DNA from: a virus
IMG/VR virus record: IMGVR_UViG_3300031669_000003
Span: 1-64,000 of that record
Reading direction: 5' to 3' (one strand)
DNA: 64,000 nt
The position numbers and the translations under genes are program-made. The notes under the pieces are model-generated. The model saw nothing but the letters and a program-made list of their open reading frames with translations. It was not told the origin of the DNA and did no database searches. Shown here one piece after another: positions 6,077 to 63,935 of the stretch (position 1 is the first letter of the stretch; each line of letters begins with the position of its first letter).

Positions 6077-6330
6077 GGGCCGGTGCAGGAGGCGCCTCCC
6101 ACATATCGAAATTCCTGAAGCAGCGCAAAGAGTGGCTCTCCGGCAGAAAAGATCCTCCCATCCATCCGAAGAGCAAGAAACTCTGGGACGTTCTCAGGAA
6201 ACCCTCCTTCGTCACGCCTCATATGATCAGGAGGATCGGCGGTGGGGCTGCGCTCGGTTACATTACCGCAGCGAGTCTCCCAGGAATCGCCAGGCGCCTT
6301 CGTGTGCTTCTCAAGAAGGACCGTAAATGA
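5782..6330 (+). CDS. Hypothetical protein with glycine-rich membrane-like segment, overlapping the lysine-rich gene
   Basis: 182 residues from ATG 5782, preceded by AGGAAGGGG. The start (F-G-E-S-F-L-D-E-I-L-P-I-F) resembles the D-E-L-x-K-I N-termini of the genes at 4658 and 5235. Residues 30-85 are an Glu/Gly/Ser-rich stretch that is the out-of-frame reading of the lysine repeats of the 5516 gene. The last 95 residues look like a genuine domain: a hydrophobic Gly/Ala segment (L-L-A-I-L-G-S-A-I-G-A-G-A), a basic helix, and a second Gly-rich hydrophobic stretch. ATGA overlap with the RNA polymerase start supports translation of this frame. Confidence 0.55.
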   Translation: MDARLTSRFGESFLDEILPIFEKEGGGEEGRGSSDHRVRSCGFEAEACQEEDTSQEKEGSSQEESPGETEGSGQEKVARKKEKGGSSETLLAILGSAIGAGAGGASHISKFLKQRKEWLSGRKDPPIHPKSKKLWDVLRKPSFVTPHMIRRIGGGAALGYITAASLPGIARRLRVLLKKDRK

Positions 6331-9300
6331 TTGACGCCGATCTCCAGTTTCCAGAGATGATGAAGCGCGTCGAGCGGACGATTGCCTCAGCATTCCCGAT
6401 CGAATCGACCGGTCACATTATGGAGTTGAGCAATCTCGAGTGGAAGGGATTCGGTAACGATGTGCGTGACAACATCACCCTTCACAAAGACTACAAGATG
6501 AAGGACAAGACCCTTTCGACCGATCTGGTGGGCGACATCACCATCCGCAAGAAAGGTGGAAAAGTGGTGGATAAGAAGACCGGGGCGGTCCTGCTCACGC
6601 TTCCCCATATCACCAACCGAGCCTCCTATATCGTCAACGGGAATGAGGTCCAGACCATCAATCAGCTTAGGCTCAGACCCGGGCCGTATACGCGGTTCAC
6701 CTCCGATGACAATACCGAGACCTTCATCAATGCGGCCGGTGGCGGATACAAGATCATCTTTGACAGGCAGACCGGTGTCATTCGGATCAAGTCGGGCACG
6801 ACGTTCGTCTACATCTACCCCATCATGAAAGCCCTTGGCGTGTCTGACCAGGCGATGCAGAGTGCTTGGGGATCGGTGATCTTCGAGGCGAACAAGAAGT
6901 ATGACAAGCGTGAGCACGTCGAGAAACTCTTCAGGACGATGCGGAGATTCAGCGCCGTTCCGGATAATCAGGTCGAGGTGGATCAGGCCGTGGAGGACTT
7001 CTTCAACTCGAAGAGGATCGATCCGAAGATCTCCAAGATCACATTGAAAAAGGAATTCACGAGTATCACCCCGGAATTGCTCCTGGACGCGAGCCGCAAG
7101 GCCGTGGATCTGGCCAAAGGGACGGCCGAGATGGACGACACGGAATCACTGGCTTTCAAATCGATTCACTCGGTCGAGGACTTCGTCCCGGAGAAACTCG
7201 AGAGAGCCGTGCCGTCGATTCGTCGCCAGATCCAGATAAAGATGGATCGGATTCCTGTCGTCGAAACATTGATTTCGCCCAGGATGTTCTCGAATCCGGT
7301 GATCGACTGGTTCATGACCAGCGAGTTTACCAGGTATTCGGATCAGCAGAACCCCATCGACATGGCCGGGACCTCCCAGCTCACGACCACCATGGGCGAG
7401 GGAGGTATCCGGAGTATGCACGCCGTCACGGACCAGGTGCGAACGGTTCACCCATCCCAGATGGGTTTCCTGGATCCGCTGCACACTCCTGAAGGCGGAA
7501 AGATTGGCGTCACCGGGCACCTGACCATCGGAGCTCAGAAGAGAGGCGACTCCCTCTTCTTGACCGTTCTCAACGCGAGGACGGGAGCACAGACTCAGAA
7601 GAGCGCGCAGGAGCTCGAGGACGCAACGGTGGCCTTCAATGATCAGTACGTTCTCGACACTGGAAAGCCTAAACCCATCGCTTCCCTGATCGCGGCCAGG
7701 AAGGCGGGCAAGATCCAGATGGTCCCATCCGGAGAAGCGGACTTCATCTTTAAGGATCCCCGTTCTTTCTTCTCGGTCGCATCCAACGCGATTCCGTTCC
7801 TGCACAACAACAGTTCGAACCGCGGGCAGATGGCCGACCGTCATATCGAGCAGGCCGTTCCGCTTGTCAACCCCGACAGACCCCTGGTCCAGGCTCGGTT
7901 CAAGGGCGACATGGGGTACGACGATTACTTCGGCAAATACTCGAATGTAGCCGCTCCGATGGCTGGCACCGTGACCAAGGTCACGGACGATCTGATCAGG
8001 ATCAAAGATCAGTCGGACCAAACCCACGACGTCAGATTGCACCACAACTATCCTCTCAATGGGGGCTCGTTCCTCACGGACAGGCCTGTCGTGGTCACGG
8101 GGGATCGTGTCACTAAAGGCCAAGTCATCGCAGAGAACAATTTCACCAAGGATGGATCTCTGGCGCTCGGTAAGAATCTCCGCACGGCCCTGATCCCTTA
8201 CAAGGGTCAGAATTTCGAGGACGGGGTGGTCATTTCCCAGGATGCCGCTACGAAGCTCACCTCGGAACATAAGCATGAGATGCGTCTCGATCTGACGAAG
8301 GACATTAAGATCGGACTCGACATCTGGCTGGCGCACTATCCGGACGAGGTGTCGAAGGTGAACCGGGGGAAGTACGACACGTCCGGAGTCATTCGTAAGG
8401 GCTCGAGAATCGATCGTGGCGATGTCCTGATCCCTGCCGTGGAGCAAGTCCAGATTCATGAAGAATATGATTACGCGAGGCTTCACAAGGCCCTGCGTCG
8501 ACCCTGGCGCAATGTGGCGGTCACGTGGGAGTCGGATTATCCAGGAACCGTGGTGGACGTGGTGAGGACGGCTAAGTTCATCAAGGTGTTCATCAGGACG
8601 GAGGAGGCTGCCCAGGTAGGCGACAAGTTATGCTATACCCCGGATCATGAGGTTTTGACGCTCAGCGGATGGAAGCCTATTGCGGAGGTGACTCTCGACG
8701 ATTGGGTAGCGGTTCTGGATGCAGATGGATTCCTTAGATACGAGCAGCCATACGAACTCCATTCTTACCTGATAGACGAGAACATCTACTCGCTGGAATC
8801 CCAACAGGTATCTCTGTCCGTGACTACGAATCACAATCTCTATGTCCGTAAGAGAGGGAATAAGGAGCACGAACTTATTCCCGCCGCTGAGTGCGTTGGA
8901 AAGCGCGTTCGACATAAAAAAGATGCGAAATGGGATGGTTCTTCCGTCGAAAAGATCGTGATCCCTGGATACACGGTGAAGTGCGGGCAGGGTGGCGCGG
9001 CGACGAAAATGATAGAGCCCTCCGAATTCGAGTCACGGGACTTTCTTCGTTTCTTGGGATTCTTCATTGCTGAGGGGAACCGGTGCGCCCCGAGGCGCGG
9101 CTCTTACAGAGTTTCGCTATCTCAGAATGACGGACCGAACAAGGTGTGGATCAAGCGGGTCCTCAAGAGACTCGGTCTCGGTTGTTCTCTGCCGAAAGGT
9201 AAGGTGGAGTTCTGTCACAGGGGAATCTGGGAATGGCTTGATTGTGTGGGTGATGGCGCTGGGAACAAACATATTCCGAAGTTGATCCTCGGTTTTAGCA

Positions 9301-12300
9301 GTGACCTTCTATTGTGCCTCTGGGAAGGACTGCATAGGGGAGATGGATCAATAAGCAAGTCTGGCTCTGAGATCTACTATACATCGAGCCGTCAACTCGC
9401 GGATCAGGTTCAAGAATTGGCTTTGAAGGTCGGCTGGTCTGGAAATATCTACACCAGATTCGAGGCTGGATGGGAGACGATCATTAAAGGGAAGAAGACT
9501 AAAGCCAACTTTGATGGTCTTGTGGTTCGGATCGTGAAATCGAAGAACCAACCCATGATCAACCACGGGCACGCACGGACGCAGAACGGACAGGTGGAGG
9601 AATTGCGGCGATATTGTGGTCCGGTCCACTGTGTCACGGTTCCAGGCCACATACTATATACGAGGAGAAATGGAAAGCCGGTCTGGTGCGGTAATTCCAA
9701 TAGGGCAGGCGGCAAGGGCATCATCGTGAATATCCTTCCGGACAACGAGATGCTCAGGGATGAGTCGGGACAACCTCTCGACGTCCTGTTCAATCCCGGA
9801 GGCGTTGCCGGTCGAGTTAACCCGGGCCAGATCTTCGAGGGTGCAGCCGGAAAGGTGGCGCTGAAGACGGGCAAGCAGTACCTCGTCGACAACTTCTCGG
9901 AGCAGTCGTCCCTGGAGATGGTCAAGAAAAATCTCAAAGACGCCGGTATGAGCGACCTCGAGAGCGTCACAGATCCCACGTCCAATAATACGGTCAAGGA
10001 CGTGTTCGTCGGGAACGTGCATTTCGTGAAGTTGCAGCACCAGGTGAGTAAGAAGTTCTCGGCTCGGGGGATCGGAGGATACACGGCCGATGAGCAGCCC
10101 TCTAAGGTCAGCGGTGAGTCGGCACAGAACATCGGTTCAGGAGAGATCTATGCTCTACTGGCGTCAGGATCTCTTCATTTTTTGAAGGATGCTGCGACCC
10201 TGAAGTCGCAGTCGAATCCTGAATACTGGAGAGCCATGCAACTCGGGCTTCCCACTCCTCCTCCGAAACAACCTTTCATTCTCGACAAGTTCATCACGAG
10301 TCTCGAGGGCGCAGGGATCAACATGAAGCGGGAAGGAAACTCGCTGAAGGTCCTTCCCATGACGGACAAGGAAACTGAGTCGAGATCGAAGGGAGAGATC
10401 AAGAGTCCGGATGTCGTGAGAGCCTCGGACCTTCGTCCGGAACGAGGGGGTCTGTTCGACAAGGCCGTGACGGGAGGTATAGGCGGGACATCATGGTCCC
10501 ACATCGATCTCGAGACGCCGGTCCCTAACCCTCTCATGGAGAAGTCGGTGATCTCTGTTCTGGGCCTCAAGCCGGCCGAGTACAGGGCAATCATGGCTGG
10601 GAATCTGTTCGTGACCCAGGACGGAAAATTCACAGCGGATCACCAGAAGGGACAGCCTGCCGGCGTCGGTCTGAAAATCCTTCTGGACAATGTGAACGTG
10701 AACCGAGAGCTCGAGAAGACCATCGTCGCCATTCGTGTGGCCAGGGGTGCGCGTCTCAACGAACTAAACCTCCGTAGACGCTATCTTCAGGCACTCAAGG
10801 CCTCTAAGATGACGCCGTCCGAGGCGTACATTCAGTCGAAAATCCCGGTCATTCCTCCGGCGTTCCGGCCGATCTATCCTCTTCCTGACGGGTCGCTGAA
10901 CGTGGCCGATCCGAACCATAGCTACCGCGAGATCCTCATGATCAACAACCAGCTGAAGGATCTCGCAGCCAAAGGAGTAGACAACAAGAACCTGGCACCA
11001 ATCCGTGCGGATCTATTCGCAGCGGTCCAGGGTATGACCGGGATGATGGAGCCCCTTACCAGATCGAAGAACTTCAGGGGATTCGTGTCCACGATCAAGG
11101 GAAGGGTGAATAAGCGGGGCCTGTTCCAAGGTCGTGTGGTGAAGCGACCACAGGATCTGTCCGGCCGCTCCACCATCATCCCGGACCCACAGCTCGGAAT
11201 CGACGAGATGGGGATGCCCGCGGAGATGGGCCTTGTCATCTACAAACCGTTCATTGTGCGCCGACTCGTCGGTCTCGGGTACAAGCCGACCGAGGCCCTC
11301 GATCTCATCGACAAGAAAGACGAGAAGGCCCTCGAGGCACTCAGGCAGGAGGCGAAGGAGAGACCGGCCTATCTGAATCGAGCTCCCACGCTTCACAAAT
11401 TCGGCATCATGCCTTTCCATCCGAAGATCATGGAAGGGAAAGCGATCAGGATCAATCCGTTGATCGTCCGGGGGTACAACGCCGACTTTGACGGGGACGA
11501 TCAGATAGGCATAGTGTTATTGCACCTCGACCAGGAATCTCTTACCTTCGTAGAAGAGCAGTACGGTAAGAGATTCCTGGAGGACAGAGATGTGACGGCT
11601 CGTTACAAATGCTGCGTTCCGGCGTTTCAATCCGGGCGCTTGATCATGGTAGATCTCGCGGATTTCCCTGCCCTTCAGAAATTCAGAACTACTGAAGGGC
11701 GTAACGGCCCGATCGATTGGCATAAGATTCCGAAGGGCACCAGCGTAATCGCCTATAATGAGTCCTCTGGTTCGCTGAAGTGGGCCAGAGCCACGGTCTG
11801 GTCCAAACACTATGACCGGCTTGTCGAGATCGTCGAACTTCAGAGTGGGAGACAGATCATCACCGATGACGATCCTCGCGCTGTGTACGGTATAGTCGCA
11901 GGATCGCTCGATTTTGTGAGGGCAACTCCAAAGGAGGCGGTTGAGACAGGGATTTTCGTACCCAGAATGGCGACAGCGGAGGTGCCGGATCTTGAACCAG
12001 AGTACATTCCGGCCCGAAATATCAAAGGAGCCAGATTACACCTGAAGGAGCGCATCGATCTCACAGGAGATTTTGGATATTTACTCGGATCCTTGGCTGG
12101 GGATGGCTGGCCGGTTTTTGTCCATGATGATGCCCGCGGCGTATCACTCGCTGGGATAGCAGACGAGGTAGTGGCCCGATGTGACCGGGCGGTAGACTCG
12201 CTGTTCGATGGCGCGGCGCCTGAATGTAGCCCGGTGGATGGTAAGGAATCCTACGGCGAGAGTCGTCGAGTGACTTGGACTTCGGTCGAGCTTGGCTGGT

Positions 12301-14933
12301 TCATACACGGCCTGATCGGGAGGGGGGCGGAGAACAAGCATCTCCCTCCTTGGGTGTTCTCTTGTCGTAAGGAATTCAGATTTTCCGTGTTCGCCGGTCT
12401 CATGGATACGGACGGCGGAGTCGGAATTTCCAAGGCAAAGAAAAAGCCGCAACTCATGGCAAGCTATTCCTCTGTCAGTCTGCGGCTTGTAAGGGAGGTC
12501 AGGCTCCTCGCGGCTTCTTTGGGAATCGATAGCCGGATCACACCATCTAAGACCCCAGCCGGAGAGCCCTTTTGGGTGCTTAGTTTTTCAAATATCGGAA
12601 TCAAGGAATGGGGAGGATCTGGTTTACAAAATCCGGACAAGATCAGAAAGATCTCCGAGACACCTGTCGATCCAAATTCCAATGTGGCTGCCCGATTTGA
12701 TATCGTTCCGATCTCGTCCGGCCTTGCCCACGAGATCCGTAAGGTGATCAAGGCTCCAAGGGATGCTTCCAAGGAAAGGAAATCGATCTATGTTGTTCTT
12801 AGTAAGGCGATCACCGTTGGATCTATGAGTCGCCAGATAGCTGTAAAGATACTCAGCATGTTCAAGACGTTCGATCATCCAGATTACGAGAGGTGGAAGA
12901 CGATTGTTAGATCCGGCGTCAAGTGGGATCGAGTCGTTTCGTTTGAAAGAACCGGTATCAAGGAAACTGGGTATGACTTGACTGTTCCCGGGTTTGAGAC
13001 CTTTGTCTCGATCGATGGACTCGTTTTGTCGAACACCATGGGCGTTCACGTTCCTGTGAGCGAAGAGGCCAGGATCGAGGCCCTGTCGAAGATGCCGTCA
13101 AAGCAGCTCTTTTCCGTCACGGATGACTCGGTGATTCACACGCCGACCAAGGAATACGTCCTTGGTCTCTACCTCATGACGAAACCTATTGGGCCTAAGG
13201 TGACGGCCAAGAATGTTTCCGAGATGCTCGATCGGTTCAACAAGAAAGAGATCCTGGTGAACCAGACTGTGAGCATCCTCGGGAAGATCTGGACGCCTGG
13301 ACAGGCTCTCGTGAACGATGTGTTTCCTTCCGGGATGAGGCCCGGCAACGTCATTGTCAATAAGAGCAAGATGTCGGCCCTGATCGAGGAAGCTGCGAGG
13401 ACCTACCCTAAGGAGGCCGGGAGCGTCATCACGAAACTCAAGGACCTCGGTGCGTTCTACGTCACGGAGATTGGGTACTCGGTCGGTCTCAAGGATCTCG
13501 AATTCAATTACGTGAAGAGGGACAAGATTCTCGCGGATGCGGCCAAGAAGACGCCCAGAATAGGATTCGAGGCGGCCTACGGACAGGCCCTCGGTCGTCT
13601 CGACAATCAGGTGAAAGGAATGAAGGGGAATCGATTCGTTCTCGGGAACATCGAGTCGGGAGCCTTCGGTAAGGCCGACATGGTGACGCAGATGATCGCC
13701 ACACCGGTGGCGGTGCGTGATCATAAAAATGAACTCATTGAAGTTCCAATCGCCAAGAGCTTCGTAGAGGGGCACAGCATCACGTCATACTGGTCCACGA
13801 TTCCAGGCGCACGGAAGGGCCTCATCGAGAAGGGCCTCGGTACCGCCGAGACGGGAGCGCTGAGTAAGAGGCTCATCAACACGACGATCGAGCAGATCAT
13901 TTCGATTCAGGACTGTGGAACGCTCGAAGGCATCATGATGCCCATCGAATCGAGGGAAGCGGTCGACCGTGTGGTCTCCGACGGGCGAAACGCCGGCAAG
14001 ATATTGACTCAGTCCCTTGCCAGGCAGATGAAGGCCGCAGGGAAGTCACAGGTCAAGGTCAGATCTCCGTTAACTTGCCGCGCTCAGAGAGGAATCTGCG
14101 CGAAGTGTTTTGGTCTGCTCGAGAACGGTCAGTTCCCTCCCATCGGGTATCACGTAGGTGTCCTCGCGGGTCAGGCCATAAGCGAGCCTATGACCCAACT
14201 GATGCTTAAATCTTTTCATACCGGCGGTGCCATGAGCCGGAAGATGGTCGGTTTCGATCGGATCCGCCAGATCATGGAGATGCCCGAGAATGTTCCCGGG
14301 AAAGCTACGATCGCCATGACGACCGGGACCGTGGATAGCATCACTCAGGCTGCCGGTGGCGGCTGGATCGTGAAGATAGATGACGTGGATCACTTCATCC
14401 CGAAAGAGCGTGGACTGGGGGTTAAGCGCGGAGATAGAGTTCTCGCCGGTAAGACGATATCGAAGACCGGAGTCGTGAGGCCTCAGGATCTACTCTCGGC
14501 TACGAACGACATCAACGTGGTTCGTGGCCGTCTGATCAAGGACCTCGAAAATGAGTTCAGCCAGGGAGGCGTCAGGATCAAGCGTAAACTCTTCGAGACG
14601 GTAGTGAAGCCCATGACCGATAGGTCCGAGGTGCTTGATGCCGGGGATGGAGAGAAGCACGAGATCTTCAAGGGGGATATCATTCCGACGAATCTGATCG
14701 ATGAGACCAACAAGAAGATCAAACAGACCGGCGGCCGGCTGATCCAGTTCAAGCCGTCACTTCTGTCGATTAGGGTCGCCCCTTATCACAGCGGGGATTT
14801 CGTTGGTAAATTGATGTTCGAGCGTCCACATGAGACAATCTCTGCGGCGCCTCGGATAGGGGCCAAGTCGGATATCGCTACGGGTCATCCGATTACGCAG
14901 TATGTTTTCGGCCAGCTCGGAAAGAAGAAATGA
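6327..14933 (+). CDS. Fused multisubunit-type RNA polymerase beta-beta' chain carrying two inteins
   Basis: 2,868 residues; 2,001 after removing two inteins (769-1123, 1725-2236). Beta landmarks: Y-I-V-N-G-N-E-V near 101, H-P-S-Q-M-G-F and H-T-P-E-G-G near 365-385, G-K-N-L-R-T-A and Y-K-G-Q-N-F-E-D-G near 615-630, G-D-K-L|S-N-R at intein 1. Beta' landmarks: H-I-D-L-E-T-P-V near 1395, D-L-S-G-R-S near 1605, L-N-R-A-P-T-L-H-K near 1683, catalytic N-A-D-F-D-G-D at 1718-1724, a four-Cys zinc site (C2530, C2584, C2591, C2594) and trigger-loop region T-Q-L-M-L-K-S-F-H-T-G-G-A. The N-terminal beta' zinc finger is missing. ATGA couplings join it to both neighbours in the late cluster. It should catalyse DNA-templated RNA synthesis; alpha and omega were not found. 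Confidence 0.93.
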   Translation: MIDADLQFPEMMKRVERTIASAFPIESTGHIMELSNLEWKGFGNDVRDNITLHKDYKMKDKTLSTDLVGDITIRKKGGKVVDKKTGAVLLTLPHITNRASYIVNGNEVQTINQLRLRPGPYTRFTSDDNTETFINAAGGGYKIIFDRQTGVIRIKSGTTFVYIYPIMKALGVSDQAMQSAWGSVIFEANKKYDKREHVEKLFRTMRRFSAVPDNQVEVDQAVEDFFNSKRIDPKISKITLKKEFTSITPELLLDASRKAVDLAKGTAEMDDTESLAFKSIHSVEDFVPEKLERAVPSIRRQIQIKMDRIPVVETLISPRMFSNPVIDWFMTSEFTRYSDQQNPIDMAGTSQLTTTMGEGGIRSMHAVTDQVRTVHPSQMGFLDPLHTPEGGKIGVTGHLTIGAQKRGDSLFLTVLNARTGAQTQKSAQELEDATVAFNDQYVLDTGKPKPIASLIAARKAGKIQMVPSGEADFIFKDPRSFFSVASNAIPFLHNNSSNRGQMADRHIEQAVPLVNPDRPLVQARFKGDMGYDDYFGKYSNVAAPMAGTVTKVTDDLIRIKDQSDQTHDVRLHHNYPLNGGSFLTDRPVVVTGDRVTKGQVIAENNFTKDGSLALGKNLRTALIPYKGQNFEDGVVISQDAATKLTSEHKHEMRLDLTKDIKIGLDIWLAHYPDEVSKVNRGKYDTSGVIRKGSRIDRGDVLIPAVEQVQIHEEYDYARLHKALRRPWRNVAVTWESDYPGTVVDVVRTAKFIKVFIRTEEAAQVGDKLCYTPDHEVLTLSGWKPIAEVTLDDWVAVLDADGFLRYEQPYELHSYLIDENIYSLESQQVSLSVTTNHNLYVRKRGNKEHELIPAAECVGKRVRHKKDAKWDGSSVEKIVIPGYTVKCGQGGAATKMIEPSEFESRDFLRFLGFFIAEGNRCAPRRGSYRVSLSQNDGPNKVWIKRVLKRLGLGCSLPKGKVEFCHRGIWEWLDCVGDGAGNKHIPKLILGFSSDLLLCLWEGLHRGDGSISKSGSEIYYTSSRQLADQVQELALKVGWSGNIYTRFEAGWETIIKGKKTKANFDGLVVRIVKSKNQPMINHGHARTQNGQVEELRRYCGPVHCVTVPGHILYTRRNGKPVWCGNSNRAGGKGIIVNILPDNEMLRDESGQPLDVLFNPGGVAGRVNPGQIFEGAAGKVALKTGKQYLVDNFSEQSSLEMVKKNLKDAGMSDLESVTDPTSNNTVKDVFVGNVHFVKLQHQVSKKFSARGIGGYTADEQPSKVSGESAQNIGSGEIYALLASGSLHFLKDAATLKSQSNPEYWRAMQLGLPTPPPKQPFILDKFITSLEGAGINMKREGNSLKVLPMTDKETESRSKGEIKSPDVVRASDLRPERGGLFDKAVTGGIGGTSWSHIDLETPVPNPLMEKSVISVLGLKPAEYRAIMAGNLFVTQDGKFTADHQKGQPAGVGLKILLDNVNVNRELEKTIVAIRVARGARLNELNLRRRYLQALKASKMTPSEAYIQSKIPVIPPAFRPIYPLPDGSLNVADPNHSYREILMINNQLKDLAAKGVDNKNLAPIRADLFAAVQGMTGMMEPLTRSKNFRGFVSTIKGRVNKRGLFQGRVVKRPQDLSGRSTIIPDPQLGIDEMGMPAEMGLVIYKPFIVRRLVGLGYKPTEALDLIDKKDEKALEALRQEAKERPAYLNRAPTLHKFGIMPFHPKIMEGKAIRINPLIVRGYNADFDGDDQIGIVLLHLDQESLTFVEEQYGKRFLEDRDVTARYKCCVPAFQSGRLIMVDLADFPALQKFRTTEGRNGPIDWHKIPKGTSVIAYNESSGSLKWARATVWSKHYDRLVEIVELQSGRQIITDDDPRAVYGIVAGSLDFVRATPKEAVETGIFVPRMATAEVPDLEPEYIPARNIKGARLHLKERIDLTGDFGYLLGSLAGDGWPVFVHDDARGVSLAGIADEVVARCDRAVDSLFDGAAPECSPVDGKESYGESRRVTWTSVELGWFIHGLIGRGAENKHLPPWVFSCRKEFRFSVFAGLMDTDGGVGISKAKKKPQLMASYSSVSLRLVREVRLLAASLGIDSRITPSKTPAGEPFWVLSFSNIGIKEWGGSGLQNPDKIRKISETPVDPNSNVAARFDIVPISSGLAHEIRKVIKAPRDASKERKSIYVVLSKAITVGSMSRQIAVKILSMFKTFDHPDYERWKTIVRSGVKWDRVVSFERTGIKETGYDLTVPGFETFVSIDGLVLSNTMGVHVPVSEEARIEALSKMPSKQLFSVTDDSVIHTPTKEYVLGLYLMTKPIGPKVTAKNVSEMLDRFNKKEILVNQTVSILGKIWTPGQALVNDVFPSGMRPGNVIVNKSKMSALIEEAARTYPKEAGSVITKLKDLGAFYVTEIGYSVGLKDLEFNYVKRDKILADAAKKTPRIGFEAAYGQALGRLDNQVKGMKGNRFVLGNIESGAFGKADMVTQMIATPVAVRDHKNELIEVPIAKSFVEGHSITSYWSTIPGARKGLIEKGLGTAETGALSKRLINTTIEQIISIQDCGTLEGIMMPIESREAVDRVVSDGRNAGKILTQSLARQMKAAGKSQVKVRSPLTCRAQRGICAKCFGLLENGQFPPIGYHVGVLAGQAISEPMTQLMLKSFHTGGAMSRKMVGFDRIRQIMEMPENVPGKATIAMTTGTVDSITQAAGGGWIVKIDDVDHFIPKERGLGVKRGDRVLAGKTISKTGVVRPQDLLSATNDINVVRGRLIKDLENEFSQGGVRIKRKLFETVVKPMTDRSEVLDAGDGEKHEIFKGDIIPTNLIDETNKKIKQTGGRLIQFKPSLLSIRVAPYHSGDFVGKLMFERPHETISAAPRIGAKSDIATGHPITQYVFGQLGKKK
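8631..9695 (+). other. Intein 1 in RNA polymerase (beta conserved G-D-K-L site)
   Basis: 355 residues (769-1123 of the host protein). It starts with Cys (C-Y-T-P-D-H-E-V-L-T), has block B T-T-N-H, two LAGLIDADG-like helices (L-G-F-F-I-A-E-G and L-H-R-G-D-G) and ends in W-C-G-N followed by Ser as first C-extein residue. The penultimate His is replaced by Gly, which some active inteins tolerate. Joining gives G-D-K-L-S-N-R-A-G-G-K-G, matching the conserved beta segment, so the borders are well supported. Confidence 0.9.
11499..13034 (+). other. Intein 2 in RNA polymerase, inside the NADFDGD catalytic loop, with atypical termini
   Basis: 512 residues (1725-2236). Removing it joins N-A-D-F-D-G-D to T-M-G-V-H-V-P, exactly the conserved beta' sequence. 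Hint-like features: G-T-S-V-I-A-Y-N near 70 residues in, block-F-like G-Y-D-L-T-V-P, C-terminal V-L-S-N|T. LAGLIDADG-like motifs are L-A-G-D-G and L-M-D-T-D-G. It begins with Asp instead of Cys/Ser/Ala, block B reads T-D-D-D instead of T-x-x-H, and the penultimate residue is Ser instead of His. The nearest cysteines (a C-C pair) are 37-38 residues inside. The N-terminal border is inferred from the extein only. Confidence 0.8.
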
Positions 14934-25880: not shown

Positions 25881-28800
25881 ATGTTCGTAGATGCTTCAGG
25901 ATTGGCGATCACGCCCCTCGGCATGGACACGCCGGAATGGGGTCCGAACATGATCCACCTGCATCCGCGCACGATGGAGAAGATCGCTTCCGAACTCTTC
26001 GTTCCCGAGCGTCTCGTCGAGTTCATGGAATCGATTCGTCCGAGGGAGGACGGTCGATACATCCTTCTACATGCCATCGGTGCCGGAGAATACTGGGGTT
26101 GCTTTCTTCCTGGATCACTCGTTCAAAGGGCAGACGGACGGTATGTTCCGATCGAGGACGTTAAGAAGGGGGATCGGGTTCTCAGTCGTAGCGGGCACTT
26201 CCGCGAGGTCCTTGCCGTCTGGAAGCATGGCCGCCATCGTGAGGGTGTCAGCATTTCGGTGGAGGGCCTTGTTGATGACATCAAAACTACGCCGAATCAC
26301 GAATTTCTCGGCCTTCCTTTTGATGAGATTGTCTGTGACAGGGATCGTACCGGGCGGTGTATTCCAGAGACCAGCGGCACGCAGAATATATGCAAGAGGA
26401 CCCAGTCCGCAGCCTGCGTTTTAGCGCCGAAGACGCATACAGGGCGTTGGGTGGCGGCCGAGGCGCTGGCTCTCAAGGACTTCCTTCTCTGTGCCATTCC
26501 TGATCATGACGAGCCTCCTATTTTCACGGAGGATGAGGCCCGCGCTATTGGTCTGTGGGTGGCAGATGGTAATTTCATCGGTAATGTTTTGGAGTTCTCT
26601 GTCGCCGACTCCGAGATATATCTCGTCGAGGACATCGAGAAACTCACAAAGGCCAAGACCTACGACGGGCACGGTGCCTGCAAATCGGTTCGAGTTAATC
26701 GCCCCGATCTCGCGCCCAAGATTAAGGCCCTCTTCGGAGAATATTCTCACGGGAAGCGAATTCCCGGCACATTCTGTAGGCAGCCTGAGGAGGTCGTGCT
26801 CGCCTTTCTTTCTGGCTACTTTGACGGTGACGGTTCACAGAACCTGAAAGACAGTACGACCTATGCCCACACTGTCTCGAAGGATTTGGCCCTTGGGGTT
26901 CAGAGGCTTCTCTGGTCCGTCAAGATACCGGCGACCGTGTGCATGACACCTGGTGGGTTCCACGTCAACTTCTCGCTGGATCGAGGACGTCGACTCACCG
27001 AACGATGCCGGAAATTCTCTGATCACACCCCGAAGGGGCGCCCGAGTTATCGGCAGTTCTTTATCGACGGGTACGTGTGTCTCCCGATCAGGAAACTGGA
27101 GAGGTTTCAGATTGACGGCCCAGTCTACGATCTGGAGGTCGAGGAGGAGCACGCCTATAACGTCGGCCAAGTGGTCTGTCACAATAGCAATAAGAACGGT
27201 GACTACTTCCCGGAGTGGAGTCTCAAGGGCCTCCAGATGCCGGACGAGGTGAAGGTCTACGTCCGGGATCGAGGTCTTCCTGTTCCCCAGGAATACGGCT
27301 ATAGGACCTTCGAGTTCTACGGCTGGCCTTACAGGTATCACAACAACTCCGACCCGATCCATACCATCGGCGAGCGCGTTTGCTGCTCGGCCTACAACGA
27401 TCGCATGCATCGGATCGAGTTGATAATTTTCGTTCGGAAGGATCTGGCTCCGGATCTCGTGAATAGGATTGACGCCGGTGTGCAGGTTCCCTGGTCCATG
27501 GGATCGAAGCTCCCCTTCGACGTTTGTCTGCCGGCTGGATCTCCCGTGCATGGTCCAGAGGGTGTGGAGCGGATTGAGGACGTTCAGGAGGGTGATCTGG
27601 TCTTTACGAAGGAAGGCCGGGTTCGTCCGGTCACTAAGACCTTCAAGAGGCTATTCTCCGGGACTCTGGTGACCCTCGACGTGAAGGGGCTTCCCGAAAC
27701 GCTTACACTGACCGGAAACCATCCGATCTTTATCTTCCGAAAGGAACAGATCAGGCAGCCAGGCGGTCGGAGATTGGATGAAAGGGCTAAAGAGGCTGAA
27801 GGTCAGTTCGTGAACTCCGAGGATGTGAAGCCCGGAGATTACGTCTTCGTGCCTAAGATCAGGCCGGACGATACGGAGTTCGAGGCTATCGACCCTGTAT
27901 TCTCCCGGTTGTGCGGCTACTACCTCGGCGACGGTCACATCATCACCCAGCGTCGTGGTGAGAAAAAGGATGGTCCCAGAGATTTCACAGGTGTTTCCAT
28001 CTCCTGTGGGACCGATGACGAGGAGCATCTGAATAGAGTGGTGAACACCCTTGAAGATCTCTCCGAATCCAAGGTTCACGTCTATTCAGCGGGAGAAGAC
28101 AGAGCCGCCGTTGCTGTGGTGTGCCACGACAAGATTCTTGCCGCGAGGGTTGCGGCTATGTGTGGCCGTAAGAAAGAGAAGCGACTTCCTCCCGAAATCT
28201 TCTATAGCGCAACGGAATCGCGGTTGGCTCTTCTCGGTGGTTTGATGGACTCAGATGGAAGTATTGATCAGAAGAAGAGTTCATCGAGAATCACGATCAC
28301 TCTTCTGGATCTTATGCGCCAAACGCAGATGCTTGCGTTGTCTGTTGGGATACCGGCTACTCTTTCTTTCGTGAAAAGCAAAGGAAACGCGTATCGCGGG
28401 GCCGATACAATCGTAGGGCAGGCGCATCTCGGCGCGACTGCGACTCAGATTTTGGCCCCGTACTCGATCAAGTGCGGAAGGGCTGAGCCGAGAGCGCGGT
28501 GGGGCGCAACGGCGGTCGAGCGAGAGGATGGTTTCCTCTTCCCAGTGAAAACCGTGATCCATGAGGAGGTCGAGCAAGAACCGGTCTTCAACCTTTCCGT
28601 GGAAGAGGATGAGACCTACTTGATCGGCCCGGCAGTCCATAACTGCTCTGTTTGCATGAATCCGGCCAAGACCCGGCAGCAGTATTGCTTCGTCTCCGGA
28701 ACCCTGATCACGCTCGCCAACGGTTCCGTCAAACCGATCGAAGAAATTCGTGTTGGCGACTCGGTACTGGGGGCCGAGGGTCTTCCTACGACAGTCACCC

Positions 28801-30749
28801 ATCTGTTCCAGCGAGAAGTAGACGAGGAGATCGTCGAGATCCGCCATAGCGTTAGCCAAGAGATCCTGCGCTGCACGAAGGAGCACCCGATCCTTTCCTC
28901 TCCGAGGGAGGCTTTCTCCTGCTACTACCATCGGTACGGCAGAGAAGTCCGAAGCTGCTTCCCTGGGGCGTTCGAGGAGTGTTCGTCCTGTCGTAGTCCC
29001 GAGGAGACTCCCGATTTTGTGAAGGCACGAGATCTCCGGATTGGGGATTCCGTGTACTCTCCCGGTGTTCTACAGGAAACTCCATCAGATCTTATCGAGA
29101 CCGATGCCTACATGATTGGCCTTTTCATGGCCGAGGGCAGCTTCGCCAAGGCCGGTGATCGATTCCGCTCTGCCCAGTTTTCCATCCATGAAGATGAGTC
29201 GCACCTCATCGAGAAGATTGCCGCCTTCGGCGAAAAGTTCAACCACACGGCCAAGGTATATGGTCGGGCCGGGAGTCAGGGCATCAGTGTCCGAGTCCAC
29301 TCCCATGATGCTGCTGCCTTCCTTCACGGGCATACCGGAGAGTATGCCCATTCAAAATTCGCCTCTGACCAGGTCGTCTTCTCTCCTCCGCAGATCGTCG
29401 CCCAGTATCTGGGCGGTCTATGGGATGGAGACGGCCATGTTCAGTCCCGGTCCGGAAGACAGCCCGTGTCCCGACTGAATACGGCATCGAGATCTCTGGC
29501 GTGGCAGACGTCGGCGCTGCTCCGGAAGGTGGGACACCCGGCGTATCTTGGGCGTGCCCGCGTTCCTGGAGGCCCCACAACCAGGACGAACAAGTTTGAC
29601 CAGTGGTACGTCACCACCGACTTTCTCAGGTCGACGTCCTTGTCCAGGTCCGCAATCCGCCGTGGGATCGAAATCGGCTCGATCCGGGAGATAGGGCGAT
29701 CCCGCTATAGGGGGCCTGTTTTCAACTTCGAGACGGAAAACAACACCTATGTGGCCGGCGGTATCGCCGTCCATAATTGCAACCACTTGAAGAACATGCT
29801 GAATAGGATTCTTCCTGATGGGACGAAAGTTTTCTCCTTCAACTATTTCCCCAGGTTCTTCGATATCAGCGAGGTGACAGTCCCCGCGGATCGCAGCGCC
29901 TACTCGTTGAAGAAGGTGGCGGAGTTCATGGAATCCGGACAGGCCAGTCCGATCTGGGTTCCAGGGACGGATTACGTGTCCATCGGTCCCACCCATGAAG
30001 AGTTCAGAAGGGTTATCGAAACCGAGATGGAAAAGATCGCTGAGCGGCCGAGATTCACTCTGGAGGAGCAGGCTCACTTCGACGAAATGATCGAGATCAT
30101 GTCGAATGGCGGCGAAAAGGAAGCGGACATCGACAAAGAGGTTCCTGCCCAGGAACCCGGGAAGAATCTCGGATCCGAACCCGTGAGCAAGGATCTATGG
30201 CAGTTCGTTTACGACCTGGCCAAGAAGGACCGTGAGATGGTTCAGGAGATGCCGTCGTCGATGCGAGGTGCTCTCAGGAACCAGCCGATCGACAAGGTGC
30301 TCCAGGCCCTAACGGCAACTGGAATCCAGATGACCCCTGATGAGTCCGAGGACATCATAGGGGATCGTGAACTACCAGACGAACTTGACACTTCCTGTCC
30401 GGATCCTACACTACTCAAGAGGATTTCAGGTATCGTTCCGGGAAGATCGATGTTCGAACCTCGATTCTCGGTACGGGTGATCCAGATCTCGAGAGTTGGA
30501 GATGAAGAGTCGGATCTCCCGAAATTTCTTGTGAAAAGGGCGAACGGGATCTATGATCAATACATCAAGTGGCTCCGTTCAATCGAGTTGGAGAAGCTGG
30601 CAGAACTTGTCGCTCATCCTCCTGTTCAACTGCTCCTTAGCCCGGACGTTCTAAAAGACAAAATGTTCGAGTTCGAGGAGGAAAAGACAGGATGCTCCTT
30701 GGAAGAGGAATTCCTGCCTTTCGTTGCGGGAGCGGCCCTTGAGGATTGA
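25881..30749 (+). CDS. Prohead protease-like head protein carrying three inteins
   Basis: 1,622 residues; 523 after removing inteins at 74-435, 549-921 and 936-1299. The joined core reads E-Y-W-G|S-N-K-N-G-D-Y-F-P, then a R-Y-H-N-N-S-D-P segment with a candidate catalytic His, a V-P-W-S-M-G-S segment with a candidate Ser, a four-Cys cluster (D-V-C-S-V-C, Q-Q-Y-C), and F-F-D-I-S-E-V-T-V-P-A-D-R-S. This order resembles phage head-maturation protease-like proteins (S78-type His/Ser), and the gene lies upstream of decoration and capsid genes. A C-terminal acidic/helical region of about 300 residues follows. Protease function is inferred from motifs and position. Confidence 0.65.
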   Translation: MFVDASGLAITPLGMDTPEWGPNMIHLHPRTMEKIASELFVPERLVEFMESIRPREDGRYILLHAIGAGEYWGCFLPGSLVQRADGRYVPIEDVKKGDRVLSRSGHFREVLAVWKHGRHREGVSISVEGLVDDIKTTPNHEFLGLPFDEIVCDRDRTGRCIPETSGTQNICKRTQSAACVLAPKTHTGRWVAAEALALKDFLLCAIPDHDEPPIFTEDEARAIGLWVADGNFIGNVLEFSVADSEIYLVEDIEKLTKAKTYDGHGACKSVRVNRPDLAPKIKALFGEYSHGKRIPGTFCRQPEEVVLAFLSGYFDGDGSQNLKDSTTYAHTVSKDLALGVQRLLWSVKIPATVCMTPGGFHVNFSLDRGRRLTERCRKFSDHTPKGRPSYRQFFIDGYVCLPIRKLERFQIDGPVYDLEVEEEHAYNVGQVVCHNSNKNGDYFPEWSLKGLQMPDEVKVYVRDRGLPVPQEYGYRTFEFYGWPYRYHNNSDPIHTIGERVCCSAYNDRMHRIELIIFVRKDLAPDLVNRIDAGVQVPWSMGSKLPFDVCLPAGSPVHGPEGVERIEDVQEGDLVFTKEGRVRPVTKTFKRLFSGTLVTLDVKGLPETLTLTGNHPIFIFRKEQIRQPGGRRLDERAKEAEGQFVNSEDVKPGDYVFVPKIRPDDTEFEAIDPVFSRLCGYYLGDGHIITQRRGEKKDGPRDFTGVSISCGTDDEEHLNRVVNTLEDLSESKVHVYSAGEDRAAVAVVCHDKILAARVAAMCGRKKEKRLPPEIFYSATESRLALLGGLMDSDGSIDQKKSSSRITITLLDLMRQTQMLALSVGIPATLSFVKSKGNAYRGADTIVGQAHLGATATQILAPYSIKCGRAEPRARWGATAVEREDGFLFPVKTVIHEEVEQEPVFNLSVEEDETYLIGPAVHNCSVCMNPAKTRQQYCFVSGTLITLANGSVKPIEEIRVGDSVLGAEGLPTTVTHLFQREVDEEIVEIRHSVSQEILRCTKEHPILSSPREAFSCYYHRYGREVRSCFPGAFEECSSCRSPEETPDFVKARDLRIGDSVYSPGVLQETPSDLIETDAYMIGLFMAEGSFAKAGDRFRSAQFSIHEDESHLIEKIAAFGEKFNHTAKVYGRAGSQGISVRVHSHDAAAFLHGHTGEYAHSKFASDQVVFSPPQIVAQYLGGLWDGDGHVQSRSGRQPVSRLNTASRSLAWQTSALLRKVGHPAYLGRARVPGGPTTRTNKFDQWYVTTDFLRSTSLSRSAIRRGIEIGSIREIGRSRYRGPVFNFETENNTYVAGGIAVHNCNHLKNMLNRILPDGTKVFSFNYFPRFFDISEVTVPADRSAYSLKKVAEFMESGQASPIWVPGTDYVSIGPTHEEFRRVIETEMEKIAERPRFTLEEQAHFDEMIEIMSNGGEKEADIDKEVPAQEPGKNLGSEPVSKDLWQFVYDLAKKDREMVQEMPSSMRGALRNQPIDKVLQALTATGIQMTPDESEDIIGDRELPDELDTSCPDPTLLKRISGIVPGRSMFEPRFSVRVIQISRVGDEESDLPKFLVKRANGIYDQYIKWLRSIELEKLAELVAHPPVQLLLSPDVLKDKMFEFEEEKTGCSLEEEFLPFVAGAALED
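26100..27185 (+). other. Intein A in the protease-like head gene
   Basis: 362 residues (74-435). Starts C-F-L-P-G-S-L-V, block B T-P-N-H, LAGLIDADG-like motifs V-A-D-G and Y-F-D-G-D-G, block F V-Y-D-L-E-V-E, ends V-C-H-N with Ser as first C-extein residue. All key splicing residues are present, so it should be an active splicing and homing element. Removal restores G-E-Y-W-G-S-N-K-N-G-D-Y. Confidence 0.92.
27525..28643 (+). other. Intein B in the protease-like head gene
   Basis: 373 residues (549-921). Starts C-L-P-A-G-S-P-V, block B T-G-N-H, LAGLIDADG-like motifs Y-Y-L-G-D-G and L-M-D-S-D-G, block F V-F-N-L-S-V-E, ends A-V-H-N followed by Cys. Canonical residues are complete. Only 14 extein residues separate it from intein C. 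Confidence 0.92.
28686..29777 (+). other. Intein C in the protease-like head gene
   Basis: 364 residues (936-1299). Starts C-F-V-S-G-T-L-I, block B T-K-E-H, LAGLIDADG-like motifs F-M-A-E-G and L-W-D-G-D-G, block F V-F-N-F-E-T-E, ends A-V-H-N followed by Cys. A small Cys-rich patch (Y-Y-H ... C-F-P ... E-C-S-S-C) lies after block B. Key splicing residues are complete. Confidence 0.92.
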
Positions 30750-60253: not shown

Positions 60254-60673
60254 TCAATTCCTCTCCGCCTGTGTTTTCAACTCGTCGCCCACCATTGAAT
60301 TCCTAAGGACGTTATCGAGTCGACGGAGTACGGACCCCATGGTGTCCGCGTCATCCTTGAGTACAATTCTCAAGAACGGCATGTCGTTCTTTAGGACTCT
60401 CCAGGTTGCGCCGGAGTCCTGGTACGGGCCTGTGCCTGGGTAGAGAGCGATGTCGTCGTAGGACTTCTTCAGCCTCAATATCATTGTGACGATGTCCGCT
60501 ACGGCGTTTTGAATGAGCCCCCACTCGCCTGAGCCGTGAGTGTCTGCCTGACGTCCGTAGTTTCCGTTCTCCTTCTTCTCCCAGATGAAACTATCGAGGC
60601 CAATACGACCACCTTGGGAGAGGTGAGACGTGCACAGTATCCTGAACAAGGACTCCTCGTCCTCAAACATCAT
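60254..60673 (-). CDS. Hypothetical protein coupled to DNA polymerase
   Basis: 139 residues from ATG 60673 (second ATG at 60670), with AGGAGGT upstream; it overlaps the polymerase 3' end by 11 bases. The long open frame further upstream is a shadow of the polymerase. Acidic start (F-E-D-E-E-S-L-F), basic helical C-terminal half (L-R-L-K-K-S-Y-D-D). No family recognised. Confidence 0.6.
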   Translation of the reverse strand: MMFEDEESLFRILCTSHLSQGGRIGLDSFIWEKKENGNYGRQADTHGSGEWGLIQNAVADIVTMILRLKKSYDDIALYPGTGPYQDSGATWRVLKNDMPFLRIVLKDDADTMGSVLRRLDNVLRNSMVGDELKTQAERN

Positions 60674-63600
60674 ATCCACCTCCTGCGTAGAATTCGTCAA
60701 TGGAGACGAACCCCGACGACTCTGCCACCTCGGCGATTTCATCGAACTGTTCGAAGCTGGGAACGAATTTCGAGGCCCATCTCCTCTGGTCGTCATCGAG
60801 CATGGCGACACAGGGTTTGATCCCGGATTCTGGATCAGGCATGTGTCCGATTTCCAGGATGTCGTCGTTATCCTTATCGCTCCAGGCGTCACAGATTTTC
60901 GCCGAAGCGAAGGTCGGAACTCTCAGATTGAACCAGGCGAGTTCCATGATGTACTTGACCAGGATTCCGACGTCCTGCGCCTTCTTCTCGGGAACTTCCG
61001 CACCGATTTCATCGTGGACCTGGAGGACGAGTTTGGTGCCCTTAAACTTCCTGTTCTTGACAACGTACTCCCAGATGGCCCAGCAGATGATCTTCAGGAC
61101 ATCGGCAGCCGATCCCTGGATGATGAAGTTGAGGAGTTTACCGGCGGAGATGAAACTTTCCGTGAAATGACGCTCCCGGCCCGAGAGGGTTTTGAACATT
61201 CTCTGTCCCTCGTTCCAGCACCCATCGAGATACTCCATGCTTTCGGGGATTCCTGAGTAGAGGGACATGAACGCGTTCCGGAATCTGTCGGCACCCTGGA
61301 TGTCGTACTCGCCGTCTTCCTTGAAGAGTTTCGCGTAGACGGCGAAGCCGGCGGCCATCATGCCGTAGCAGTTATGGGATACGAGTCCGTTAGCGATGAA
61401 GCTGTGATCGTCGGCGACGGTGAAATCATGGACGGTAGTCGGTTCGACATAGTCTATCGTGACTCTTGTAATCTTCTCCTCGGCGTCGAATCGTTTCTTT
61501 GGTTCGTAGTTCTTACCCACGACTTTGACAGTCGGAATGCTTACGAGGAATCGAATCTTGCTATTCTGCCCGACGACCCCGACGGCCGCCGATATATCCT
61601 TGCCATAGTCGTAGACTCTTGAGTTGATTCCGACGCTGTCGAGAAGCCGTATCACGTCATTCAATAGGCCACGGCTCTTGGATGCGTAGGTGATCTGCGC
61701 CCGTCTTCTCGTGACAGAGACGGATCCATCTCCGTCCCATAGAGATCCGAGAACCTCGAGACGAGCCTTCCTATTCAGCGAGAACACGGATTCTGGTATC
61801 CGCTTTCCTATGGATTCCTTTACGCCGAACTTCCTGAGGTGTTTCTCGAACACACTTTTGGGGGCGGAGATGTGGGGAGATCCATCAAGGTCGTACCATT
61901 TGAATCCGAGGTACTTGTCCATCTTCTCTGCCACTAAGGGATTGACATTCGGGTCCTGAGAAATCTTGTATCTGGAGTTGCTGTAACTTCCCTCGGACAG
62001 GAACCAGCCGAGTAGGGCGCAGGACTCTTTCGGGGCTTTATCTCCATTGGAATATCCCCTGCCATGGTAGACGAGGTAGTTTCCAGTTTTGAGTCGGCCC
62101 ATTTCGACCCATCCCTTGCCTCCTTTCATACCGTTGGCAGAGGGGAAGTATCTTTCAAGCATGTGGTCGGGAGTGCCTGTGATGATCTTGCCGGTCGATG
62201 TCTCGACGGTAACGAGCGTCTTCGTTTTGAGTCTCTGAAGTGCTGTCACGGATCGCCACCCGGTTCTCGTCATGACCAGGTCGCCAATCTCGATCTTCTC
62301 GATGGGTCTGTAGCCGTCGATAGTCAGGATCTGCGTTCCGGCTACGAGACACAGACCGAAGTTGAGATTCTTCGCCAGCTTCCTTCCGATGTCGAATCCC
62401 ACCATCTGGGAGACGAACGACTTCGTCGATGCGTGGACGTCTCCCGTGTAGTAGGTGATGCCGTCGTGGTGAACACACTCCTGGTAGATCTTCATGAGAT
62501 TGGCGTCACCTGTTACGTGGGCGATCAGTCTCAATTCGATCTGGCTCAGGTCCGCGCTGAGGAACTTCTTTCCCCGTGGGGCCGCGAATGCTTCTCGGAT
62601 CTTGGGTCCGAGTTGCTGGATTCGTTCGTCGTACTCATGGGGCTTTGATCTCGCTGGTATGTTCTGGAGGTTAGGCCCAGATGAGGAGGCGCGGCCTGTC
62701 TTGCGTGCTCCGATTGGGTTGAACTTGGCATAGATTCTATGATTCTTGTCTTCGAGAGACTTCAGTCGCATCTTATGGACGTAGGTCCCGTAGAGTTTCT
62801 TCAGGGATTTGAAGTTCAGGATCATCTGCGGAAGCGGGTGCTTAATCCGCATCAGATTCTTCTCATTCGTTCCCCTATTCCCTGAGTAGTCTGTGAACCC
62901 GTGGATATCATAAAGGACGTTGGCAACCTGCTGGGGCGAGTTAGGGTTGAATTCCATCTTTGCAAGGTTGAAGACCTCGGCCTCGAACTCGTTAATGAGA
63001 GGGACGAAGATGTCCTCCAGTTTCTGGAGTCGATCCGGATTCACATGGATGCCGGACACTTCCATTGCCGCCGCGGCGAACGTGGTCTTGATCTCCATGC
63101 CGGCCCATCGATCGAGTCCTCGGTTTGTGAGATATCTGCGGAGGAAGTAGAAGAGCCTGAGCGTTTGCCGCGCATCGTCCTCGGCGTACTCGCGCTTCTG
63201 GGCATCTGCTTCGGCCTCGAGGTGAACCATGTCCGCTTTGAGGTCTCCGATCTTCCGGTTCATAGCCTCGATGGTTTCGTTCTTGATCTGGCTTCCGAAC
63301 TTCCTTTCGATGTAAGCGTCGACCTTCGCCTGGTAGATAGATCTCTCCTCTCGGTCCTCCTTTTTCCTGCGGCCCTTGAACCTCTCCTTCAATTCGTTTC
63401 CGAGCCGCTTTATTTCGCTCTTCGCTTCCTTGTTGATCTCGGTGATGATCTGGGACTTTCTCTCCTCGAGGTCAACTATAACCTTCTCGCTTTGACGAAT
63501 CATCATCATGGCTGGAGAGTAGATGTACGCCTCCTCGTACGTGACCATCTTGTAGCCGAAGATCCGATCGACCATCTCTTTCAACCCGTGAGGGATCATC

Positions 63601-63935
63601 CCCTTGTAGAGCCACGATAGGGGGAGCGTATCGATAACCTTTGCCTGGACGTCGTTCAAGTTGAAGATCCCATTGAAGTGGAGGACCTCGAGGTCGAATC
63701 GGATGATGTTGTGTCCGATGACGCGAAGACTCGGGCGCCTCAGTTGTTCTTTGACGAACGATATGACCTCCGAGGTCGGAGGGACGGCCACAGCTACCGT
63801 GGCCGTCCCTTTACCCGAAGCCATTGCGACGAGTTCGACCTTGGCTTCCCTCGATATTTTGGAGGTCGTCTCAAGGTCGAGAGATAGGATGCCGTACTCG
63901 TCGATCTTATCCCTGAGGAGCCTGAACTTGGACAT
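60663..63935 (-). CDS. polA: Family A DNA polymerase with exonuclease domain and one intein
   Basis: 1,090 residues; 763 without the intein. Proofreading domain: Exo I L-S-L-D-L-E-T-T (17-24), Exo II G-H-N-I-I-R-F-D (about 75), Exo III Y-A-E-D-D-A-R-Q-T (about 250). Between Exo II and III there is a long charged coiled-coil insertion (about 150-245), unusual for the family. Polymerase motif A S-A-D-L-S-Q-I-E-L (460), motif B R-K-L-A-K-N-L-N-F-G interrupted by the intein after residue 528, motif C V-L-Q-V-H-D-E-I (H974-E976). It should be the replicative enzyme. The start overlaps the upstream stop (TGATG). Confidence 0.93.
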   Translation of the reverse strand: MSKFRLLRDKIDEYGILSLDLETTSKISREAKVELVAMASGKGTATVAVAVPPTSEVISFVKEQLRRPSLRVIGHNIIRFDLEVLHFNGIFNLNDVQAKVIDTLPLSWLYKGMIPHGLKEMVDRIFGYKMVTYEEAYIYSPAMMMIRQSEKVIVDLEERKSQIITEINKEAKSEIKRLGNELKERFKGRRKKEDREERSIYQAKVDAYIERKFGSQIKNETIEAMNRKIGDLKADMVHLEAEADAQKREYAEDDARQTLRLFYFLRRYLTNRGLDRWAGMEIKTTFAAAAMEVSGIHVNPDRLQKLEDIFVPLINEFEAEVFNLAKMEFNPNSPQQVANVLYDIHGFTDYSGNRGTNEKNLMRIKHPLPQMILNFKSLKKLYGTYVHKMRLKSLEDKNHRIYAKFNPIGARKTGRASSSGPNLQNIPARSKPHEYDERIQQLGPKIREAFAAPRGKKFLSADLSQIELRLIAHVTGDANLMKIYQECVHHDGITYYTGDVHASTKSFVSQMVGFDIGRKLAKNLNFGLCLVAGTQILTIDGYRPIEKIEIGDLVMTRTGWRSVTALQRLKTKTLVTVETSTGKIITGTPDHMLERYFPSANGMKGGKGWVEMGRLKTGNYLVYHGRGYSNGDKAPKESCALLGWFLSEGSYSNSRYKISQDPNVNPLVAEKMDKYLGFKWYDLDGSPHISAPKSVFEKHLRKFGVKESIGKRIPESVFSLNRKARLEVLGSLWDGDGSVSVTRRRAQITYASKSRGLLNDVIRLLDSVGINSRVYDYGKDISAAVGVVGQNSKIRFLVSIPTVKVVGKNYEPKKRFDAEEKITRVTIDYVEPTTVHDFTVADDHSFIANGLVSHNCYGMMAAGFAVYAKLFKEDGEYDIQGADRFRNAFMSLYSGIPESMEYLDGCWNEGQRMFKTLSGRERHFTESFISAGKLLNFIIQGSAADVLKIICWAIWEYVVKNRKFKGTKLVLQVHDEIGAEVPEKKAQDVGILVKYIMELAWFNLRVPTFASAKICDAWSDKDNDDILEIGHMPDPESGIKPCVAMLDDDQRRWASKFVPSFEQFDEIAEVAESSGFVSIDEFYAGGGYDV
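61371..62351 (-). other. Intein in DNA polymerase motif B
   Basis: 327 residues (529-855). Starts C-L-V-A-G-T-Q-I-L-T, block B T-P-D-H, LAGLIDADG-like motifs F-L-S-E-G and L-W-D-G-D-G, block F V-H-D-F-T-V-A, ends V-S-H-N followed by Cys. Removal joins N-L-N-F-G-L to C-Y-G-M, the conserved O-helix sequence. All splicing residues are canonical. Confidence 0.93.

Follow-up and report, generated by a model that had tools for sequence, protein, structure and literature searches.

Genes and features at the locus

The DNA analysed here, called the window below, is a stretch of 64,000 nucleotides belonging to a 120,910-base virus record of IMG/VR; a large terminase gene lies on that record, and the source of the window is therefore a tailed phage. 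The gene under study is a single open frame of 2868 amino acids, which encodes the fused beta and beta' subunits of a phage multi-subunit RNA polymerase and contains two inteins. In the beta' part, an insert of 512 residues follows the catalytic loop NADFDGD, and the polymerase then continues as TMGVHVPVSEEA. The features are the following (a slash within a motif marks the boundary between insert and host protein):

6327..14933, + strand: host gene, fused beta-beta' subunit of the RNA polymerase; rpoB and rpoC profiles match along the whole protein
8631..9695, + strand: separate canonical intein in the beta part (Cys1, TTNH, GN/S), an internal control; direct reading
11478..11498, + strand: end of the N-extein, catalytic loop NADFDGD, whose third Asp is residue -1; direct reading, loop kept in homologues
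11499..13034, + strand: non-canonical intein of 512 amino acids; same-site homologues, and an AlphaFold2 model that matches inteins over its whole length
11499..11534, + strand: block A (DQIGIVLLHLDQ), with Asp at position 1, which varies within the family; alignment of 22 members and the sister inteins starting with Cys (C1) or Ser (S1)
11655..11669, + strand: LADFP motif (family consensus LEDFP), common to most C1 and S1 sister inteins at the site; alignments
11853..11891, + strand: block B (QIITDDDPRAVYG), with Thr at B:7, Asp-Asp-Asp at B:8 to B:10 (His replaced) and Arg at B:12; DDD, R and A in 22/22, B:7 Thr or Ser
12072..12422, + strand: LAGLIDADG homing endonuclease core (GYLLGSLAGDGW and FAGLMDTDGG motifs); Pfam LAGLIDADG_3 at E=1e-8, I-DmoI-like fold with Z about 15
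12969..13019, + strand: block F (GYDLTVPGFETFVSIDG), with Asp at F:4 and Glu where the usual block-F His sits; D, E, T and F in 19/19 members with the C-terminal end
13020..13034, + strand: block G, LVLSN, with Ser at G:6 and Asn at G:7; LSN in 27/27 distinct members
13035..13037, + strand: C-extein Thr+1, the proposed first nucleophile; Thr in 27/27 insert-bearing genes against 46/68 empty ones

A sequence-only reading of this region had described an insert that separates NADFDGD from TMGVHV, begins with Asp, has T-D-D-D at block B and ends in Ser-Asn, and direct reading bears this out in full: positions 11499-13034 translate as one open frame with exact boundaries, its first residues being DQIGIV and its last VLSN, and block B reads GRQIITDDDPRAVYG. 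The boundary is right because homologues without the insert read NADFDGD/TMG, the very join that gives an uninterrupted polymerase; one of them, L016, has a host part 62% identical to that of the window. The insert is thus in frame, and taking it out gives back the conserved host protein (NADFDGD/TM in empty relatives), its catalytic loop intact in every member examined.

Within these 64 kb the phage has at least six inteins, this insert and at least five others. One is that of the beta part, a second sits in a family A DNA polymerase (60663-63935, - strand; Cys1, TPDH, HN/C), and three are in the protein at 25881-30749 (Cys1, HN/S or HN/C). Those five, read from their sequences, all have Cys1 and a block B His, so the odd residues belong to this element and not to the phage. 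The intein of the beta part has a Cys at the F:4 place despite its Cys1; its homologue in L003 has Gly there.

Fold and boundaries of the insert

Pfam finds in the insert LAGLIDADG_3 and Intein_splicing, the latter at 5e-5, below the curated cut-off, and homologues of the insert are found with E-values down to 2e-141; together these matches place its identity as an intein far beyond chance. An AlphaFold2 model built with 18 related sequences has a mean pLDDT of 83, and its best match in the PDB is PI-PkoII (2cw7; Z 27.0, 398 residues, rmsd 3.1), with the TliVMA intein also matched (Z 25.7 over 342 residues, rmsd 3.0). Complete inteins are matched end to end, and both this comparison and Pfam give a predicted HINT fold with blocks A, B, F and G around the endonuclease. 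The insert is an intein by fold, site and life style, and the homologues, the fold and the alignment all support the earlier view of an intein-type element with non-canonical catalytic residues.

The N-terminal junction is modelled poorly, with pLDDT below 50 at model residues 1-9, and in this stretch the fold comparison pairs the first strand two residues off the sequence alignment (model residue 9 with intein residue 4), an offset that carries no weight at such low confidence. Block A lies at the very start of the insert, where xQxGxVxV aligns without gaps to the CxxG or SxxG starts of the sister inteins, so that position 1 really is Asp. An extension of 75 amino acids ahead of block A was considered and rejected, as the sister inteins place block A at the junction; the first strand as a mimic of the C-extein was also rejected, since that strand is block A itself. 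Block F reads YDLTVPGFETF, with Asp at F:4, confirming that the class 3-like Cys is missing.

A family of inserts at the same site

In IMG/VR, searches with the insert, alignments and the block F pattern brought up at least 28 further distinct relatives. Each one whose upstream flank was read is preceded by DFDGD (or DYDGD) and followed by the same strand of the polymerase. The pattern DLTVPGxETF occurs in 31 stretches, of which 30 are the family element and one is an unrelated intein (L119). A two-member alignment run against prokaryote genomes, one per species, found no relative, and tblastn of named phages and plasmids found no close relative of the insert.

Residue 1 is unconstrained in the 22 aligned members: Gln occurs in 10, Asp in three, Phe, Glu and Lys in two each, and Cys, Leu and Tyr in one each. 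Homologues with a canonical start restored had been named as what would overturn the sequence-only reading; instead, 21 of the 22 aligned inserts, the window's included, have a non-nucleophilic residue 1, and the state is therefore real and old and not a sequencing error. A sequencing or assembly error hiding a canonical start is refuted by this count (21/22 without Cys, Ser or Thr at position 1) and its probability is negligible; in the window and in L003 alike, stops interrupt both other frames, and nothing was found in favour of an error save a frame break near the start of one relative, L045. An internal start at a Cys-Cys pair, also suggested earlier, is rejected because no relative in the alignment of 22 has the pair at that place.

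The other catalytic positions behave in the opposite way to residue 1. In block B the three Asp, the Arg and the Ala of [TS]DDD-[PE]-R-A are without exception in the 22 members that have the N-terminal half. Of these members, 19 also have the C-terminal half, and none of the 19 departs from Asp F:4, the block-F Glu, Ser G:6 and Asn G:7; LSN/T stands at all 27 distinct C-termini. Members recruited through block B keep block F, and the reverse; the signature was not made by the search, because its two ends were found independently. Frames are intact in all members but L045 and L125. The frame-broken L045 (from 3517) is outside the set of 22 and has TDND at block B; its frame break near the start, together with TDND, may be assembly error or decay. 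In L003 (5911-9677) the beta' gene stops about 140 codons past the intein and continues as a separate downstream open reading frame.

For the pair L116 and L122, which are 76% identical, dN/dS is 0.18/1.26 = 0.15, as low in the N- and C-terminal HINT parts as in the endonuclease, and within this pair residue 1 is Asp in one and Glu in the other. Judged from these substitution rates, the lineage is under purifying selection. This bears directly on the possibility of a degenerate insert that does not splice, its host gene being dead or dispensable. The loss of all three usual histidines and of Cys or Ser at residue 1 is what such decay could leave behind, but the new residues are invariant in 27 C-termini and 22 N-terminal halves; together with the dN/dS of 0.15 and the intact frames (except in L045 and L125) this nearly refutes it, and we regard it as very improbable. 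The earlier suggestion that the polymerase is dead if the insert does not splice finds no support either, given the conserved relatives and the purifying selection.

Residue +1 is also constrained. Thr follows the insert in all 27 carriers, whereas among the 68 empty hosts Thr is found in 46, the others having Ala (15), Lys (4), Gln (2) or Ser (1); a Fisher test gives p of about 1.5e-4 with 28 carriers counted, a value to be taken only as a guide, since careful counting gives 27 and the sequences share ancestry. The enrichment matters for a second alternative, cleavage without ligation, in which Asn would cyclise at the C-terminal end, perhaps with cleavage at the N-terminal end too, and the polymerase would work as two chains. 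A cleavage-only HINT domain could afford to lose both its N-terminal nucleophile and its block B His, and the Asn-Thr pair is invariant. Cleavage, however, needs no nucleophile at +1, where carriers always have Thr though Ala, Lys and Gln occur in empty hosts, and the polymerase would hardly tolerate a break in its chain next to the metal-binding Asp; we consider this alternative improbable, although less so than decay.

The window's lineage is monophyletic and apart from the other inteins at the site (support 97/98), its nearest sister in the tree being the long-branched L058. Carriers lie dispersed over the host tree, where 9 of them require 8 changes, and the window's closest host relative, L016, has no insert; such a distribution suggests that the element moves, or is often lost.

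The same site is also occupied by inteins of a more usual kind. Among phage inteins, L042, L058 and L145 start with Cys, and L072, L085/L089, L032, L044 and L077 (L077 lying two residues further on) with Ser, all with a block B His. Another Cys1 intein, L150, lies at this site on a bacterial MAG contig; it was the only C1 intein in a scan for the pattern NADFDGD/C over one genome per prokaryote species, which gave two chance matches besides. These class 1-type inteins share with the window's element the site, an LxDFP-like motif in most and the LAGLIDADG layout; they differ in having Cys1 or Ser1 and the block B His, and the complete ones end in [WYQ]D or HN. Four of them (L042, L058, L089 and L145) end in Asp ([WYQ]D/T) and not Asn, another unusual C-terminus.

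Proposed mechanism

We infer splicing, and each of the chemical steps set out here, from the observed sequence, site, family, invariant residues and purifying selection and from the predicted fold. The element has entered the heart of a polymerase and persists there, monophyletic and scattered among empty hosts, which is hard to imagine without excision; counting against this argument, the phage RNA polymerase may be dispensable in some hosts.

On balance we lean towards a lineage of mobile inteins whose excision needs no N-terminal nucleophile and most likely proceeds by direct attack of Thr+1, the class 2 shortcut. The Thr+1 hydroxyl would attack the carbonyl of Asp-1 directly, at the bond between Asp-1 and residue 1, giving a branched ester; Asn512 would then cyclise, with Ser standing in for the penultimate His; and an O-N acyl shift would join NADFDGD to TMGVHV. 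The ligated host peptides expected from splicing are NADFDGDTMGVHV and GYNADFDGDTMGVHVPVSEEAR. Asp B:10, Arg B:12, Asp F:4 and the block-F Glu may take the activating roles of the usual histidines.

A different first step can be drawn for the same outcome, in which the first acyl acceptor is a carboxylate, either the Asp-1 side chain by way of a cyclic anhydride or Asp B:10, and Thr+1 takes the acyl group afterwards. Closure of a cyclic anhydride by Asp is the chemistry of Asp-specific self-cleaving proteins; we know of no intein in which a carboxylate is the first acceptor. Asp-1 is always present, being a catalytic, metal-binding Asp of the polymerase, block B has three invariant Asp, and residue 1 is free, all of which would suit such a route. 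Yet it is the host enzyme that fixes Asp-1, which stands beside the Cys1 and Ser1 inteins of the same site too, so its presence is not specific to this chemistry, which we hold to be unlikely but more plausible than cleavage without ligation.

The direct attack by Thr+1 that we prefer has its own weak point: Thr is a weak nucleophile, and the class 2 inteins known so far employ Cys+1 and depend on His B:10 (PMC4031507), a position taken by Asp here. According to PMC5222942, the direct attack step is possible for class 2 inteins only.

Comparison with known inteins

We found no description in the open literature of inteins with this signature, nor of phage inteins at this site, and the main text of PMC7481178, on phages with such polymerases, does not mention inteins. 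A natural lineage with neither the cysteine nor the block B His would widen what the HINT fold is known to be capable of, would provide tools for which neither residue 1 nor oxidation matters, and would show how an element lives inside the metal-binding loop of RNA polymerase. Its signature ([TS]DDDxRA, DLTVPGxETF, LSN/T) makes the question of splicing directly testable. Of the three intein mechanisms on record, those of classes 2 and 3 each rely on a cysteine and on the block B His; an altered active site common to at least 28 relatives points to a putative way of protein splicing not described before.

RNA polymerase inteins are known in archaea (rPol A' and A'') and in eukaryotes (RPB2, RPA2 and RPC2). 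They too have multi-subunit RNA polymerases as hosts, and the eukaryotic ones lie near the active centre but, unlike the insert, in the second largest subunit (PMC1635734).

Class 1 chemistry requires Cys, Ser or Thr at residue 1 (PMC4031507, PMC5222942, PMC7664689); the window has Asp, and such a residue is missing in 21 of the 22 aligned members. Bacterial intein-like (BIL) domains lack a nucleophile at +1, where all 27 carriers have Thr. Class 3 inteins, of the phage DnaB and TerL type with a Trp-Cys-Thr motif, resemble the insert in the lack of a residue-1 nucleophile, in Ser or Thr at +1 and in a phage home; they have Cys F:4 with Trp B:12 and Thr G:5 (PMC5222942), whereas the insert has Asp493, Arg127 and Leu510 at these places, all invariant, and Asp for His B:10.

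The nearest likeness is to class 2, that is, KlbA of Methanococcus jannaschii and its orthologues, which has Ala1, Ser G:6, Asp F:4 and His B:10 and in which Cys+1 attacks the N-terminal bond directly (PMC4031507). Like these, the insert has no residue-1 nucleophile, Ser G:6 and Asp F:4 (Ser511 and Asp493, in 19/19), Thr at B:7 (Thr or Ser in the family) and a proposed direct attack from +1. In contrast to class 2, its residue 1 is variable and not Ala, +1 is Thr and not Cys, B:10 is Asp and not His, block F has a Glu, and the host protein is another one, not a KlbA orthologue. Since the element departs outright from classes 1 and 3 and also lacks some of the tested defining features of class 2, it is a candidate for a fourth class by its presumed chemistry. 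We think it somewhat probable that such a fourth mechanistic class exists, confined to the catalytic loop of RNA polymerases from phages. It would splice with no catalytic Cys, residue-1 nucleophile or block B His and would use Thr+1 (or a carboxylate) and a set of invariant acidic residues.
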